Positions 1,719 through 19,755 of a stretch of DNA of 64,000 bases are shown one piece after another. Location of the stretch: the NCBI GenBank assembly GCA_900471815.1, contig UICE01000007.1, forward strand, positions 372,001 to 436,000. The letters are read 5' to 3'. The stretch comes from Hyphomicrobiales bacterium. Its GTDB lineage: Bacteria > Pseudomonadota > Alphaproteobacteria > Rhizobiales > Rhizobiaceae. Position numbers and translations under genes: made by a program. The notes under the pieces are model-generated. The model saw only the letters and a list, made by a program, of their open reading frames with translations. It made no database searches and was not told the origin of the DNA. Position 1 is the stretch's first letter. The number at the start of each line of letters is the position of its first letter.

Positions 1719-3257
1719 ATGCCGAAACCGGTTCTGGACATCCACAACGTCACAAAGCACTTCGGTGCGGTAAAGGCGTTGACGAATGTAAGTTTCAGCC
1801 TCCATCGCGGGGAAATTCACGCGATCTGCGGCGAAAACGGAGCCGGCAAATCGACGCTGATGAATATCATTGCCGGTGTGCTGCAACCGGATGAGGGTGA
1901 AATCCTCGTGGAAGGTGAGGCGGTGAAAATCGCCTCTCCTTCAATAGCCCAATCATTTGGTCTGGGGCTTGTGCACCAGGAAATCGCGCTTTGTCCTGAT
2001 GCAAGCATAGCGGAAAATATCTTCATGGCCGCGACGAGCCGCCAGCGATCGTTCCTGATGGACTATCGTAAACTGGAACGTAAGGCGCAGGAAGTCATGA
2101 ACCGGCTTGCACCGATCGACGTGCGCCGAAAGGTTGCGGATCTGTCCATTTCCAGCCAACAGCTGGTGGAGATCGCCAAGGCTCTGACGCTGGATTGCCG
2201 GGTACTGATCTTTGACGAACCAACAGCTGCATTGACCGAAGCCGAAACCCGCATATTGTTCGATATTATTCGGGATCTGAAAGCGAACGGCATTTCCATT
2301 ATTTACATCAGTCATCGAATGGCTGAGATTTTCTCGCTCTGCGACCGTGTCACGGTTCTGCGCGACGGCCGATATGTGTCCACGGAGAGGGTGGCAGATG
2401 TGACGCCCGATGATGTTGTCCGCCGTATGGTGGGCCGTGAAATAACCCAGCTCTATCCGCCTAAACAGCAAAGCGCTGAGGTGTCAGGCGAGACAATCCT
2501 TTCGGTTCGTGGCCTTGGTGACAGAAGCCGCTTCCTTGATATCAATATCGAGTTGAACAAAGGCGAGATACTAGGCATTGGCGGTCTGATCGGCTCTGGC
2601 CGCACGGAGATTGCCGAGGGCATTTGCGGTCTGCGGGCGATCACGGATGGCGAAATCCGCTTGCACGGTCAGGTACAGGCAATCAAGACTTACACGGATG
2701 CCGTAGAGGCTGGCATCGTCTATCTTTCCGAGGACCGCAAAGGTTCTGGCGTTTTCCTCGACATGTCGATCGCCCAGAATATTTCCGTTCTCAATCTCAA
2801 GGCGCTGACGGGACATCTGGGGCTGATTAATGCGCGGGGCGAAGCACAGCTTGCCCACGCATTCGCGCAGCGGCTGAATATTCGTATGGCCAACATCGAC
2901 ACGCCTGTATCCGCGCTCAGTGGCGGCAATCAGCAAAAGGTCGCGATTGCCAAACAGCTCGCGGTGCAACCGAAGGTTATCCTGATGGATGAGCCGACAC
3001 GCGGCATTGATGTCGGCGCAAAATCCGAAATTCACCTGTTGCTTCGCGATCTGGCAAGGTCCGGCATCGGAATCATTGTCATCTCGTCAGAGCTGCCGGA
3101 ATTGCTTGGATTATGTGACCGGGTGCTGGTTATCCGGGAGGGAAAGATCGCGGGTGAACTCGGCGCAGATGAGATGACGGAGGAGGCGGTGATACGGCTG
3201 GCTTCCGGTGTCAATCAAAGCGAACAAACACGGTTGGCGACAGATCATGCTGCCTGA
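1719..3257 (+). CDS. Sugar ABC transporter ATP-binding protein (RbsA/XylG type, duplicated)
   Basis: Cytoplasmic energy-coupling subunit with two ABC modules in one chain, as in RbsA, MglA and XylG. 512 residues. The first module has Walker [10 protein letters not shown] (about 38-46) and Walker [11 protein letters not shown]; its signature is degenerate (LSISS), which is normal in this family. The second module has a weak Walker A (GSGRTE), a full signature LSGGNQQK and Walker [14 protein letters not shown]. The start is ATG 1719 with GGGGAGGA at 1703-1710; an in-frame TTG at 1701 lies within that ribosome site and is unlikely. The next gene starts 22 bp downstream. Confidence 0.95.
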
Positions 3258-3279
3258 AAAGTCTATGGGAGAAAATAAC

Positions 3280-4269
3280 ATGGTGGCTGAAACAATCGGA
3301 GTAAGTGCTACGCGGACACCGTCCTGGAAAAGGCTGGGTTCAATGCGGGAAGCTGGGCTGATCGCGATCATTCTGGCGCTGTGCATTGCCATGAGCTTTG
3401 CTTCACCGCATTTTCTGACCCTCGGCAATTTCCGCGCCATGCTGATGAGCTTTTCCGTTGAAGGCATTGTTGTGGTTGGCATGACAATTCTGCTCATCGT
3501 CGGCGGTATCGATCTGGCGGTGGGTTCCGTAGTCTGCTTCGCAATGGTGCTTTCAGGCTCGCTTTTCCTTGCGGGACTGGACCCGTGGAGCGCCTCTCTT
3601 ATCGGTATTCTGGCAAGCAGTCTGATTGGCTGCGTGATGGGCTTCTTTGTTACCGTTGTCGGACTTAATCACTTCATCACTTCGCTCGCCGGAATGGTGA
3701 TTGTACGTGGCCTTTGCCTTATAATCACCAAAGGAACGCCGCTCTCGCTCTTCACCCTACCCCCCGCGTTCAAGGCAATCGGGCAGGGCAGTTTCCACGG
3801 CGTGCCCTATGTCATCATAATTTTCATTGCTGTCGTTGTACTTTTCGACTTCCTGTTGCGGCGTGCAACAGCTTTGCGAAAAGTCTTCTATACCGGAAGC
3901 AATGAAAAGGCCGCTCTTTACTCAGGCATCAGGACCAATCAGGTCAAGTTCTGGGTGACTGTTCTCTGTTCCACGCTCGCCGGGGTGGCAGGCGTCATCT
4001 ATATGTCACGCTTCGGTGCGGCGACCCCTACATTCGGCGTCGGCATGGAGCTGAACATCATCGCAGCGGCTGTTATTGGCGGCGCGTCATTGAATGGCGG
4101 ATCGGGAACAATTCTTGGTGCGATCCTCGGCATTGCCCTGCTTTCGGTGGTCACAAGCTCGCTGGTTCTGCTTAATATATCGGTTTACTGGCAGGACATG
4201 ATCAAGGGTTGCATTCTACTCGGCGCAGTATCCATTGACCACTTTTTGCACAAGCGTAAGGCTTCCTGA
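3280..4269 (+). CDS. Sugar ABC transporter permease (RbsC/AraH family)
   Basis: Membrane channel subunit of the importer. About 329 residues from ATG 3280, which has GGGAGAA at 3267-3273; an ATG at 3265 is a less likely alternative. Eight or more hydrophobic segments are visible. Family features include SVEGIVVVGMT, GGIDLAVGSVV near residue 75 and a GGASLNGGSGTILGA stretch near the C-terminus, the conserved loop of the BPD_transp_2 family. Its stop is one base before the start of the regulator gene, so the two are probably translationally coupled. Confidence 0.95.
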   Translation: MVAETIGVSATRTPSWKRLGSMREAGLIAIILALCIAMSFASPHFLTLGNFRAMLMSFSVEGIVVVGMTILLIVGGIDLAVGSVVCFAMVLSGSLFLAGLDPWSASLIGILASSLIGCVMGFFVTVVGLNHFITSLAGMVIVRGLCLIITKGTPLSLFTLPPAFKAIGQGSFHGVPYVIIIFIAVVVLFDFLLRRATALRKVFYTGSNEKAALYSGIRTNQVKFWVTVLCSTLAGVAGVIYMSRFGAATPTFGVGMELNIIAAAVIGGASLNGGSGTILGAILGIALLSVVTSSLVLLNISVYWQDMIKGCILLGAVSIDHFLHKRKAS

Positions 4270-15246: not shown

Positions 15247-16947
15247 TTAGTTCTTTTCGCGGTTCTTCAGGGCTGCGCCGAGAATGTCGCCGAGCGAAGC
15301 GCCGGAGTCTGTCGAACCATACTGGGCAACAGCTTCCTTCTCTTCAGCGATTTCAAGCGCCTTGATGGAAACCTGCAGCTTGCGGGTCTTCTTGTCGAAA
15401 GCGATGACGCGCGCGTCTGCCTTCTGACCAACAGTGAAGCGCTCTGGACGCTGTTCGTCGCGGTCACGGGACAGATCAGCACGGCGGATGAAGGTGTCGA
15501 GGTCGTGATCGACCAGACGCACTTCAAGGCCACCATCGGTGATCGCCGTAACTTCTACGGTTACAACGGCGTTCTTGCGCAATTCACCCGAAGTCGCTGC
15601 TTCGCCGACCTTGTCGCCGGTAAGCTGCTTGATGCCAAGCGAGATGCGCTCTTTCTCGACGTCAACGTCGAGAACTTGCGCCTTGACCATGTCACCCTTG
15701 TTGTACTCTTCGATGACCTGTTCGCCTGGACGATTCCAGTCGAGATCGGAGAGGTGAACCATGCCGTCTACATCGCCATCGAGGCCAATGAACAGGCCAA
15801 ACTCGGTCTTGTTCTTGACTTCGCCTTCGACGATCGTACCGACAGGGAACTTTTCAGCAAAAGTGGTCCAAGGATTGTCGAGTGTCTGTTTGAGACCGAG
15901 GGAGATGCGGCGCTTGACCGGATCCACTTCGAGAACAACGACTTCGACTTCCTGTGTTGTCGAGAGCAGCTTGCCCGGATGCACGTTCTTCTTTGTCCAG
16001 GACATTTCAGAAACGTGGATAAGGCCTTCGATGCCTGGCTCGATCTCAACGAATGCACCGTAATCAGTGATGTTGGTAACCGTACCGGTGATCTTTTTGC
16101 CGATTGGGTACTTCGCACCGATACCATCCCAAGGATCGCTTTCGAGCTGCTTCATGCCGAGCGAAATACGATGTGTTTCCTGGTTGATACGGATGATTTG
16201 AACCTTGACCGTCTGGCCAATGCTCAGGATCTCCGAAGGATGGTTCACACGGCGCCATGCCATGTCTGTTACGTGCAGAAGACCGTCAATACCGCCGAGG
16301 TCAACGAACGCACCGTAATCGGTGATGTTCTTGACAACGCCTTCAACGACCTGACCTTCTTCGAGGTTCTGGACGATTTCAGAACGCTGTTCCGCACGGC
16401 TCTCTTCGAGAACTGTACGACGCGATACAACGATGTTGCCGCGACGCTTGTCCATCTTGAGGATTTCGAAGGGCTGCGGATTGTGCATAAGCGGGGTAAC
16501 ATCGCGGATCGGACGGATGTCAACCTGTGAGCGCGGCAGGAAGGCTACGGCGCCATCGAGATCGACAGTGAAACCACCCTTGACCTGATTGAAGATCACG
16601 CCATCGACACGTTCGCCGCGGTTGAACTTCTCTTCCAGGCGAACCCAGCTCTCTTCGCGGCGTGCTTTTTCGCGCGACAGAACAGCTTCACCCAGCGCAT
16701 TTTCGATGCGCTCAACATAAACTTCAACGATATCGCCTGGCTTGAGCGAACCGTCCTTGGCTTTCGCGCCGAATTCCTTCAGCGGAACGCGGCCTTCAAC
16801 CTTGAGACCGGCATCAATGATCGCCATGTCTTTTTCGATGGCAACAACACGGCCCTTTACAACATAACCTTCTGCAAGGTCGTTGGTGGCAAAGGACTCG
16901 GCGAGAAGAGCTTCGAAATCTTCGCGCGATGGATTGGCTTGAGACAT
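15247..16947 (-). CDS. rpsA: 30S ribosomal protein S1
   Basis: RNA-binding ribosomal protein that helps mRNA bind the 30S subunit. 566 residues with a series of S1 (OB-fold) repeats; clear repeat cores include GVVKNITDYGAFVDLGGIDG, GTVTNITDYGAFVEIEPGIEG and GEVKNKTEFGLFIGLDGDVD, each followed by the HVSEMSW or HLSDLDW type segment. Start at 16947 (MSQANPSREDF) with AGGAG just upstream; the in-frame upstream extension is not needed. It is the last gene of an aroA-membrane protein-cmk-rpsA series and ends at the strong terminator. Confidence 0.97.
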   Translation of the reverse strand: MSQANPSREDFEALLAESFATNDLAEGYVVKGRVVAIEKDMAIIDAGLKVEGRVPLKEFGAKAKDGSLKPGDIVEVYVERIENALGEAVLSREKARREESWVRLEEKFNRGERVDGVIFNQVKGGFTVDLDGAVAFLPRSQVDIRPIRDVTPLMHNPQPFEILKMDKRRGNIVVSRRTVLEESRAEQRSEIVQNLEEGQVVEGVVKNITDYGAFVDLGGIDGLLHVTDMAWRRVNHPSEILSIGQTVKVQIIRINQETHRISLGMKQLESDPWDGIGAKYPIGKKITGTVTNITDYGAFVEIEPGIEGLIHVSEMSWTKKNVHPGKLLSTTQEVEVVVLEVDPVKRRISLGLKQTLDNPWTTFAEKFPVGTIVEGEVKNKTEFGLFIGLDGDVDGMVHLSDLDWNRPGEQVIEEYNKGDMVKAQVLDVDVEKERISLGIKQLTGDKVGEAATSGELRKNAVVTVEVTAITDGGLEVRLVDHDLDTFIRRADLSRDRDEQRPERFTVGQKADARVIAFDKKTRKLQVSIKALEIAEEKEAVAQYGSTDSGASLGDILGAALKNREKN

Positions 16948-17085
16948 ATATACTCCTGAAGTGTCCGGCTTTCCGCTTTTAGGAAAGGTTTTTGGACACA
17001 GGCACCGGTGGTTCGAGTTACGGATCATTCACATGCCAACCCGCCCTATGAGGGCAATCCGGTGCGAGGGCTGACTGCAAATGTA

Positions 17086-18066
17086 TTACTTGGTATTACG
17101 GGCTTCCCGCGCCAAGGCCTGATCGATCAGAGTTTTGGCATTAAGAAACGCGGTCTCTATATCCATTTCTGTCGTATCAAGCAAGTGCGCGTCCGCTGCC
17201 GGCTTCAACGGAGAGTCTGTGCGCCCCATGTCACGCGCGTCACGGCGGGTAAGGTCGTCGAGAACATCCTGATAATTTACGTCCTTGCCGCTGGCTTTGA
17301 TTTCATCATGCCGCCGCTTGGCCCGCGCTTCCGGCGAGGCAGTAATGTAAAGCTTCACGGGAGCATCAGGGCAGACAACGGTACCGATATCGCGCCCATC
17401 CAGCACTGCACCCGGCGATAGCAAGGCAAATCCCTGCTGTGCCGAGACTAGCGCCCGGCGTACGGCCGGCATGATGGCGACTTTTGATGCTGCTTCACCA
17501 ACATCGTGTGCGGACAGAACGGTACGATCCAATGTCGACAGATCGATTGAACGTGCGGCTTTCTCGGCCAAAAACTCATCGTCGAGCGGCATGCCCTGAT
17601 CCAGCAAGGTTTTGGCCACCGCGCGGTAGGTAAGACCCGTGTCAAGATGATGATATCCGTAAAATTGGGCGAGACGCCGTGCAAGCGTGCCCTTGCCTGA
17701 GGCCGCTGGACCATCAATGGCGATGGTGAAATGTTTCGGCGGCGATAATTCGAGTTCATCCTTGTCGAAGAACCACTGCCAGAGCGCAAAAAGCAGATAG
17801 GCTGCGGCCAGAACCAGCGTGATGAGCGGTGTAATGCCGATGGTTACAAAGGCAAAGCCGCCAAGCGTCGTCATCATCGATTCGAGCCACTCGGGCAGAT
17901 AGGTGGCCAGATTTTGCAGGAATGTATCAATTGCGAGGATGAGAAACAGCTGGAAAACAAATAGCCAGAATAGCAGCGCGAACAGCCCGAAGCGAACTTT
18001 GAGTCCGATGCGCTCTATAGCGTAGGGGATAGCCGTAATCGCAATTGATGCCAGCAGGAAATACAT
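17086..18066 (-). CDS. cmk: Cytidylate kinase fused to an N-terminal membrane domain
   Basis: CMP/dCMP kinase of the nucleotide pool. The kinase domain begins near residue 111 with [18 protein letters not shown] (P-loop about 119-127) and continues through [26 protein letters not shown] and [17 protein letters not shown], a complete Cmk. Unusually, it is preceded in frame by about 100 residues with roughly three transmembrane helices (about 2-15, 28-47, 67-100). There is no stop and no in-frame ATG, GTG or TTG between the last helix and the kinase. ATG 18066 shares one base with the stop of the upstream small membrane gene. Known Cmk proteins are about 210-230 residues; this is 326. Confidence 0.88.
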
Positions 18067-18383
18067 CAGTTGGTTGTCCTGTTGCCTGTAAAGAACCCTA
18101 TACCGTAACCGGCTATCGACCCAAGTGCTGGTGGCAGCAGGAGAAACTGGTAAGGCATCCACTCGCTCGCAACCGCAGCTTCGGAGATGTTCCACGCATA
18201 GAGGAAGATCAGCAGTAAAGGAAGAACGATACGAAAAATCGTACAGCTTATACCCGGCCACCGCCGGTCGGACCTGCTGGCGAGCGTGCCGGCATGGGCA
18301 CCCTTTGCGGCCCACACGATGAATGGGATACTGGACATTCCGTAAAGCCCATAAACTGTAATAGCCGAAAAAAATGAATTCAT
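18066..18383 (-). CDS. Small membrane protein between aroA and cmk
   Basis: About 105 residues from ATG 18383 (a TTG at 18407 inside the aroA end would add 8). Three hydrophobic stretches are visible, near residues 5-22, 48-64 and 80-98, with a short polar tail (GNRTTN). No family recognised. Its TGA shares a base with the ATG of the membrane-domain/Cmk fusion, and it begins 8 bp after the aroA stop, so it is embedded in the aroA-cmk-rpsA operon. The tight coupling to another membrane segment suggests the two may work as a pair; this is inference. Confidence 0.7.
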
Positions 18384-18390
18384 TGGGTCG

Positions 18391-19755
<1,365 letters not shown>

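Follow-up and report, generated by a model that had tools for sequence, protein, structure and literature searches.

Is the CMP kinase of Phyllobacterium a membrane protein? The question is raised by one gene in the window (the whole 64,000-nt stretch of DNA analysed here), whose genus of origin we take to be Phyllobacterium, a group of soil and plant bacteria. CMP kinase is a core enzyme of pyrimidine metabolism and the known bacterial cytidylate kinases (Cmk) are soluble, whereas in this gene the kinase appears to be read through from a hydrophobic N-terminal domain.

A CMP kinase gene fused to a membrane domain

The gene and its neighbours are arranged as follows:

18391..19746, minus strand: aroA, upstream of both the small gene and the fused gene; its homologues were used for synteny and for a tree
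18066..18383, minus strand: gene for a small hydrophobic protein of ~105 aa, a separate ORF just upstream of the fused gene
17086..18066, minus strand: fused TM-Cmk gene as read from the ORF, 326 aa, with ATG at 18066-18064 and stop codon TAA at 17088-17086
17755..18066, minus strand: N-terminal membrane domain (residues 1-104, extent of the profile) with three hydrophobic segments
17731..17769, minus strand: linker (residues 100-112), overlapping the end of the profile domain, variable, with length changes by whole codons only
17155..17724, minus strand: cytidylate kinase domain (residues 115-304), Pfam match
15247..16947, minus strand: rpsA (ribosomal protein S1), downstream of the fused gene, within ORF 15247..17028 and with its start inferred at MSQANPSRED

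ORF 18391..19746 is presumably aroA, in keeping with the context of the NCBIfam AroA-Cmk family, and ORF 15247..17028 is presumably rpsA.

An earlier note, made from the letters of the window, had described a complete Cmk (from about residue 111) that continues in frame from about three transmembrane helices, with neither a stop codon nor an in-frame ATG, GTG or TTG to separate the two. The gene is as it was described, on a strand that the note had not given. A single minus-strand frame of 326 residues runs from 18066 to 17086, from ATG to TAA; the Pfam domain Cytidylate_kin spans residues 115-304 (E 5.5e-54); a simple hydropathy scan finds three hydrophobic stretches, at about residues 3-22, 19-55 and 64-101; and the last in-frame ATG, GTG or TTG ahead of the kinase are codons 64 and 65, which are situated at the beginning of the third hydrophobic stretch, so that none occurs from helix 3 to the P-loop. 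The fusion of a membrane domain and a CMP kinase in one frame is real.

Conservation of the fused frame in Phyllobacterium genomes

The full-length protein was used as a query against 59 genomes, including 20 of Phyllobacterium (the window's own among them). All 20 were matched over the full length, as they were in a search of the genus only, and identity to the window protein in the other 19 was 77-91%. In each of the 39 genomes outside Phyllobacterium the match begins only at query residue 103-114, so that the kinase part alone is matched. Named records gave 17 loci encoding the membrane domain: 16 from Phyllobacterium (one a Candidatus species) and one from a Rhizobiales isolate.

The frames of the 20 genus members are open from Met1 to residue 323-329; apparent internal stops in a few of them are the genes' own end stops. 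The DGP motif of the kinase starts at residue 118, 119 or 120, therefore differences in length before the kinase are whole codons. The earlier note had called for a check for a missed frameshift between the two parts, and this concern is removed because 20 genomes keep the frame. The same 20 genomes, public Phyllobacterium records among them, rule out a sequencing or assembly artefact that joined two genes, a candidate to which we assign next to no weight.

Median pairwise dN/dS was lowest for the kinase (0.057), followed by the membrane domain (0.098) and the linker (0.34); of 190 pairs, 182, 170 and 119, respectively, were usable. These values are rough, synonymous sites being close to saturation (mean pS ~0.6). 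Selection acts on both halves of the protein, the membrane part being under purifying selection, and the linker evolves faster than either. The retained frame, the whole-codon changes and the low ratio of the membrane part lie well outside what chance would give.

Kinase domain and gene copy number

The fused protein scores above the cut-offs of both kinase families, with 183.5 bits against 26 for PF02224 and 169.8 bits against 135.55 for TIGR00017. Residues 115-313 align residue by residue to 1cke_A, a solved bacterial CMP kinase, with the P-loop and the conserved segments present; the assignment of catalytic residues within this alignment is presumed. By these comparisons the window protein is a predicted member of the (d)CMP kinase family, and this assignment stands because solubility and a start just before the P-loop are typical of the family and are not required for catalysis. 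The score with the AroA-Cmk model NF008816 (180.5 bits, cut-off 943) comes from the Cmk part only; there is no AroA domain in the chain.

In a PF02224 scan of six Phyllobacterium genomes the fused gene alone scored over the cut-off, once per genome; the other eight matches in these six genomes are short and below the cut-off. With no second recognised CMP kinase in the genomes checked, phosphorylation of CMP and dCMP would take place at the membrane. PMC6609329 proposes, for a minimal cell in which cmk is only quasi-essential, that CMP may also be a substrate of UMP kinase (pyrH); because of this possible activity of pyrH, we consider cmk of Phyllobacterium no more than likely to be essential.

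Predicted topology of the membrane domain

Three hydropathy peaks precede the kinase in all 20 Phyllobacterium proteins (by the simple hydropathy scan, which is not a dedicated topology predictor), the strongest 19-residue window scoring 2.50-2.88. Helix 1 of the window protein is short and moderately hydrophobic, with a peak of 1.49. For comparison we used 40 outgroup loci, from the 39 genomes outside the genus and from G105, a genome described below. No hydrophobic extension was seen in outgroup cmk genes; of the 40 loci, 29 are open for 19 codons or more upstream, and in these the strongest window scores no higher than 1.04.

In all 20 proteins the first loop carries a net positive charge, and K and R are absent from the second. 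It is well established that positively charged loops lie on the cytoplasmic side (the positive-inside rule), and the loop charges favour an N-out, C-in topology with three crossings of the inner membrane and the kinase in the cytoplasm, which is where CMP and ATP are. This argument draws on the two loops only, because the stretch after helix 3, presumed to be inside, is acidic (net acidic in 18 of the 20 proteins).

An alignment of the membrane domains of the window protein, eight of the 19 other genus members and two unfused homologues (G105 and G352) has the pattern YxxER...FGxFAxxFWLFxxQ in common between fused and unfused proteins. Searches of Pfam and PHROGs with the domain from the window and from three unfused homologues gave no match below E 0.01 (best 0.011), and NCBIfam searched with the window proteins matched the kinase part and nothing in the membrane part.

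The CMP kinase of Phyllobacterium is thus predicted to be cytoplasmic and probably tethered to the inner membrane. Our main reading, to which we give a probability of roughly 0.77, is that a single fusion in the ancestor of Phyllobacterium gave rise to an N-out, C-in anchored enzyme. The ancestor would have carried a gene for a small three-helix membrane protein between aroA and cmk, which fused in frame with cmk to give a product of 323-329 residues; the N-terminus would be outside, three helices would cross the inner membrane and a short charged linker would hold a complete kinase on the cytoplasmic side. As the sole recognised CMP kinase, this protein would phosphorylate CMP and dCMP at the membrane, and may recycle the CMP released there by CDP-alcohol phosphatidyltransferases and the Kdo transferase. 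The full-length fused protein presumably accumulates.

Start codons and the linker

A soluble kinase could still be made from the fused gene if translation began within the linker. The earlier note stated that a standard Cmk starts just before the P-loop, and in line with this an ATG, GTG or TTG is present in all 40 outgroup loci no more than 30 codons ahead of the DGP motif. In 13 of the 20 Phyllobacterium genes the last 30 codons before DGP are free of all three codons; the other seven have at least one, and in a single case this is an ATG. No start codon common to all 20 genes was found in these 30 codons. A hidden standard start in the Phyllobacterium linker was considered and rejected as unlikely, the candidate codons not being conserved across the 20 genes. 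Met1 of the fused gene, for its part, is preceded by a site resembling a ribosome-binding site: the median anti-Shine-Dalgarno pairing is -6.0 in Phyllobacterium versus -6.25 for the best start of the 40 outgroup loci.

Some support for initiation within the linker, at a rare or near-cognate codon, comes from several genomes that have an in-frame candidate there with pairing of -4.7 to -6.0 (TTG110 in L012, ATG107 in L013, GTG110 in L018 and CTG107 in L002, L008, L010 and L011), while TTG99 recurs in four of the 20 loci (L009, L011, L018 and L020). Therefore a soluble form is possible in some species, as in-frame candidates occur in 7 of 20 genes, some with fair pairing, and it could be a minor internal product there. 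As the general source of a soluble kinase, internal initiation is improbable: no candidate is shared by all species, the majority of the genes are free of ATG, GTG and TTG in the stretch concerned, and the best near-cognate start in the window's own gene, CTG91, has a pairing of only -1.5. Slightly less improbable, and still unlikely, is cleavage of the full-length protein in or near the linker, which would release a soluble kinase from a small membrane protein. The rapid evolution of the linker (median dN/dS 0.34) and its variation in length by whole codons are what one would expect of an exposed stretch; a plain tether, however, would show equal variability, and the 20 genus members have no strictly conserved motif in the linker at which they might be cut. 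Anchoring of the intact fusion protein remains the reading that we prefer.

The result bears on annotation as well. If the start of such a gene were moved to its usual place, 13 of the 20 genomes would be left with no ATG, GTG or TTG among the last 30 codons before the motif.

Genomic context and origin of the fusion

In the window, the TGA of the small upstream gene shares one base with the ATG of the fused gene. A homologue of the small gene ends at most ~90 bases before the fused gene in all 20 Phyllobacterium genomes, the two genes being ~80 bases apart by match coordinates in some species (e.g. G011, G012 and G016). The small gene was matched in 23 of 99 genomes: all 20 Phyllobacterium genomes, G071, G079 and, weakly, G058 (E 0.0018). 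The distant homologues in G071 and G079 lie between aroA and cmk; the match in G058 is on a different contig from cmk. The small gene has no match in Pfam, NCBIfam or PHROGs, and its product has no similarity of note to the membrane domain of the fused protein (BLASTP E 0.70). Among the 40 outgroup loci, the aroA match ends at most 165 bases before the DGP motif in 28 and further off in three; in the remaining nine aroA was not found in the stretch examined. The gap between aroA and cmk is a site where small membrane genes lie.

Where does the membrane domain occur outside the fusion? A profile of the domain was run (E 0.01) against several sets of genomes, matches with E of 1e-4 to 1e-2 being counted as chance hydrophobic similarity; one of these, in G181, has no aroA, cmk or rpsA in its surroundings. 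In 394 genomes of the family 17 were matched: eight of Phyllobacterium, G105, G352 and seven weak ones. In 397 genomes of the order five were matched, the strong ones outside the genus being G352 and G626, and in 37 genomes of the genus of G626 two were matched, G626 itself and G1069. Five of 289 genomes of the class were matched, with the window's own as the only strong match, and another draw of 297 family genomes, which may overlap with that of 394, yielded G105 and four Phyllobacterium genomes and nothing new. No match was found in 72,556 plasmid records, a set from which records near the window's genome may be absent.

The strong matches outside the genus (G105, G352, G626 and G1069) have E-values of 4e-23 or better:

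G105, locus L066: unfused homologue of 117 aa, 34% identity, starting just after the aroA stop codon
G352, locus L065, 4612-4941: unfused homologue of 109 aa, 37% identity, converging on an alanine racemase-like ORF
G626, locus L089, 1554-1886: unfused homologue of 109 aa, near a terminase-like ORF at 1903-3393
G1069: profile match in an open frame of 109 aa

No kinase is fused to the homologues of G105, G352 and G626, and only in G105 does aroA adjoin the homologue. G105, the sole genome of its genus in the set searched, has a normal cmk ~3.7 kb beyond aroA and the unfused membrane gene, with other ORFs between (L066 4453-8766). Of the eight genomes of its genus (g97) that were listed, G352 was the only one matched. 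In L089 the homologue adjoins an ORF resembling a phage terminase large subunit. This neighbour hints that the domain may have spread via a mobile element. The alanine racemase-like (L065) and terminase large subunit-like (L089) ORFs were named by eye and not by search, and these names are our assumption.

A tree of AroA was made from 46 sequences; 12 of the 58 candidates (40 outgroup loci, 17 named loci and the window) had AroA absent or too short and were dropped. The 18 Phyllobacterium sequences form one group with support of 100/99, and G105 lies outside it. Since Phyllobacterium is a single group in this tree, one fusion suffices to explain the data, which are consistent with one origin. 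And since small membrane genes sit in the gap between aroA and cmk, fusion through the loss of a stop codon and of the cmk start would be the simplest history. In the genomes searched we did not find the intermediate expected from it, an unfused copy immediately upstream of cmk.

Possible role of membrane anchoring and comparison with known systems

Several well-known enzymes set CMP free at the membrane: the synthases of phosphatidylglycerophosphate, phosphatidylserine and phosphatidylcholine, and the Kdo transferase. Local recycling of this CMP beside the lipid-making enzymes is the reason for anchoring that we favour, tentatively. The sole CMP kinase, placed at the inner membrane, would work as a local station of CTP regeneration that takes up CMP from the phosphatidyltransferases and the Kdo transferase close to the CDP-diacylglycerol machinery, and the three-helix domain may attach itself to one of these enzymes or sense the membrane; in this full form the proposal is doubtful. 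Anchored conversion of CMP to CDP could keep the supply of CTP near CdsA. At least as plausible is that the kinase is anchored with no consequence for CMP metabolism, the membrane domain keeping a job of its own and the kinase having merely lost its start codon. This view shares its anatomy with our main reading and competes with CMP recycling about purpose only. The membrane domain occurs unfused elsewhere, beside the alanine racemase-like and terminase-like ORFs, and therefore presumably has a function without Cmk. Retention of the fusion in 20 of 20 genomes speaks against neutrality, though an irreversible fusion to an important gene would fit the same observation equally well, and we put neutral fusion at somewhat short of even odds.

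If the only recognised CMP kinase is indeed anchored, Phyllobacterium would be a natural experiment on whether the recycling of nucleotides is coupled in space to lipid and LPS synthesis. The fusion also ties an otherwise unnamed family of small membrane proteins to a known enzyme.

Like other bacterial Cmk proteins (TIGR00017, PF02224, 1cke), the fused protein has a complete kinase domain with the P-loop and the DGRD and RDxRD segments, and its gene lies by aroA, the usual arrangement in the outgroups examined (28 of 40 loci); unlike the known members, which begin just before the P-loop, it has ~104 membrane residues ahead of the kinase. Fusions of Cmk with another domain in one chain are already known, namely AroA-Cmk (NF008816), which also mirrors the aroA-cmk neighbourhood, PanC-Cmk (NF010004) and Cmk-Der (NF007071). 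Their partners are soluble enzymes or a GTPase, whereas here the partner is a predicted membrane domain; Pfam, NCBIfam and PHROGs hold no model for a fusion of this kind. The unfused three-helix proteins of G105, G352, G626 and G1069 are homologous to the membrane domain of the fusion. A literature search over titles and the beginnings of abstracts, with most subscription papers outside its range, found nothing on a membrane-fused Cmk. Two papers touch on cmk: a gene table in PMC8756737 has a 'cytidylate kinase-like' neighbour, and PMC9312162 deals with the presence of cmk in phytoplasmas.
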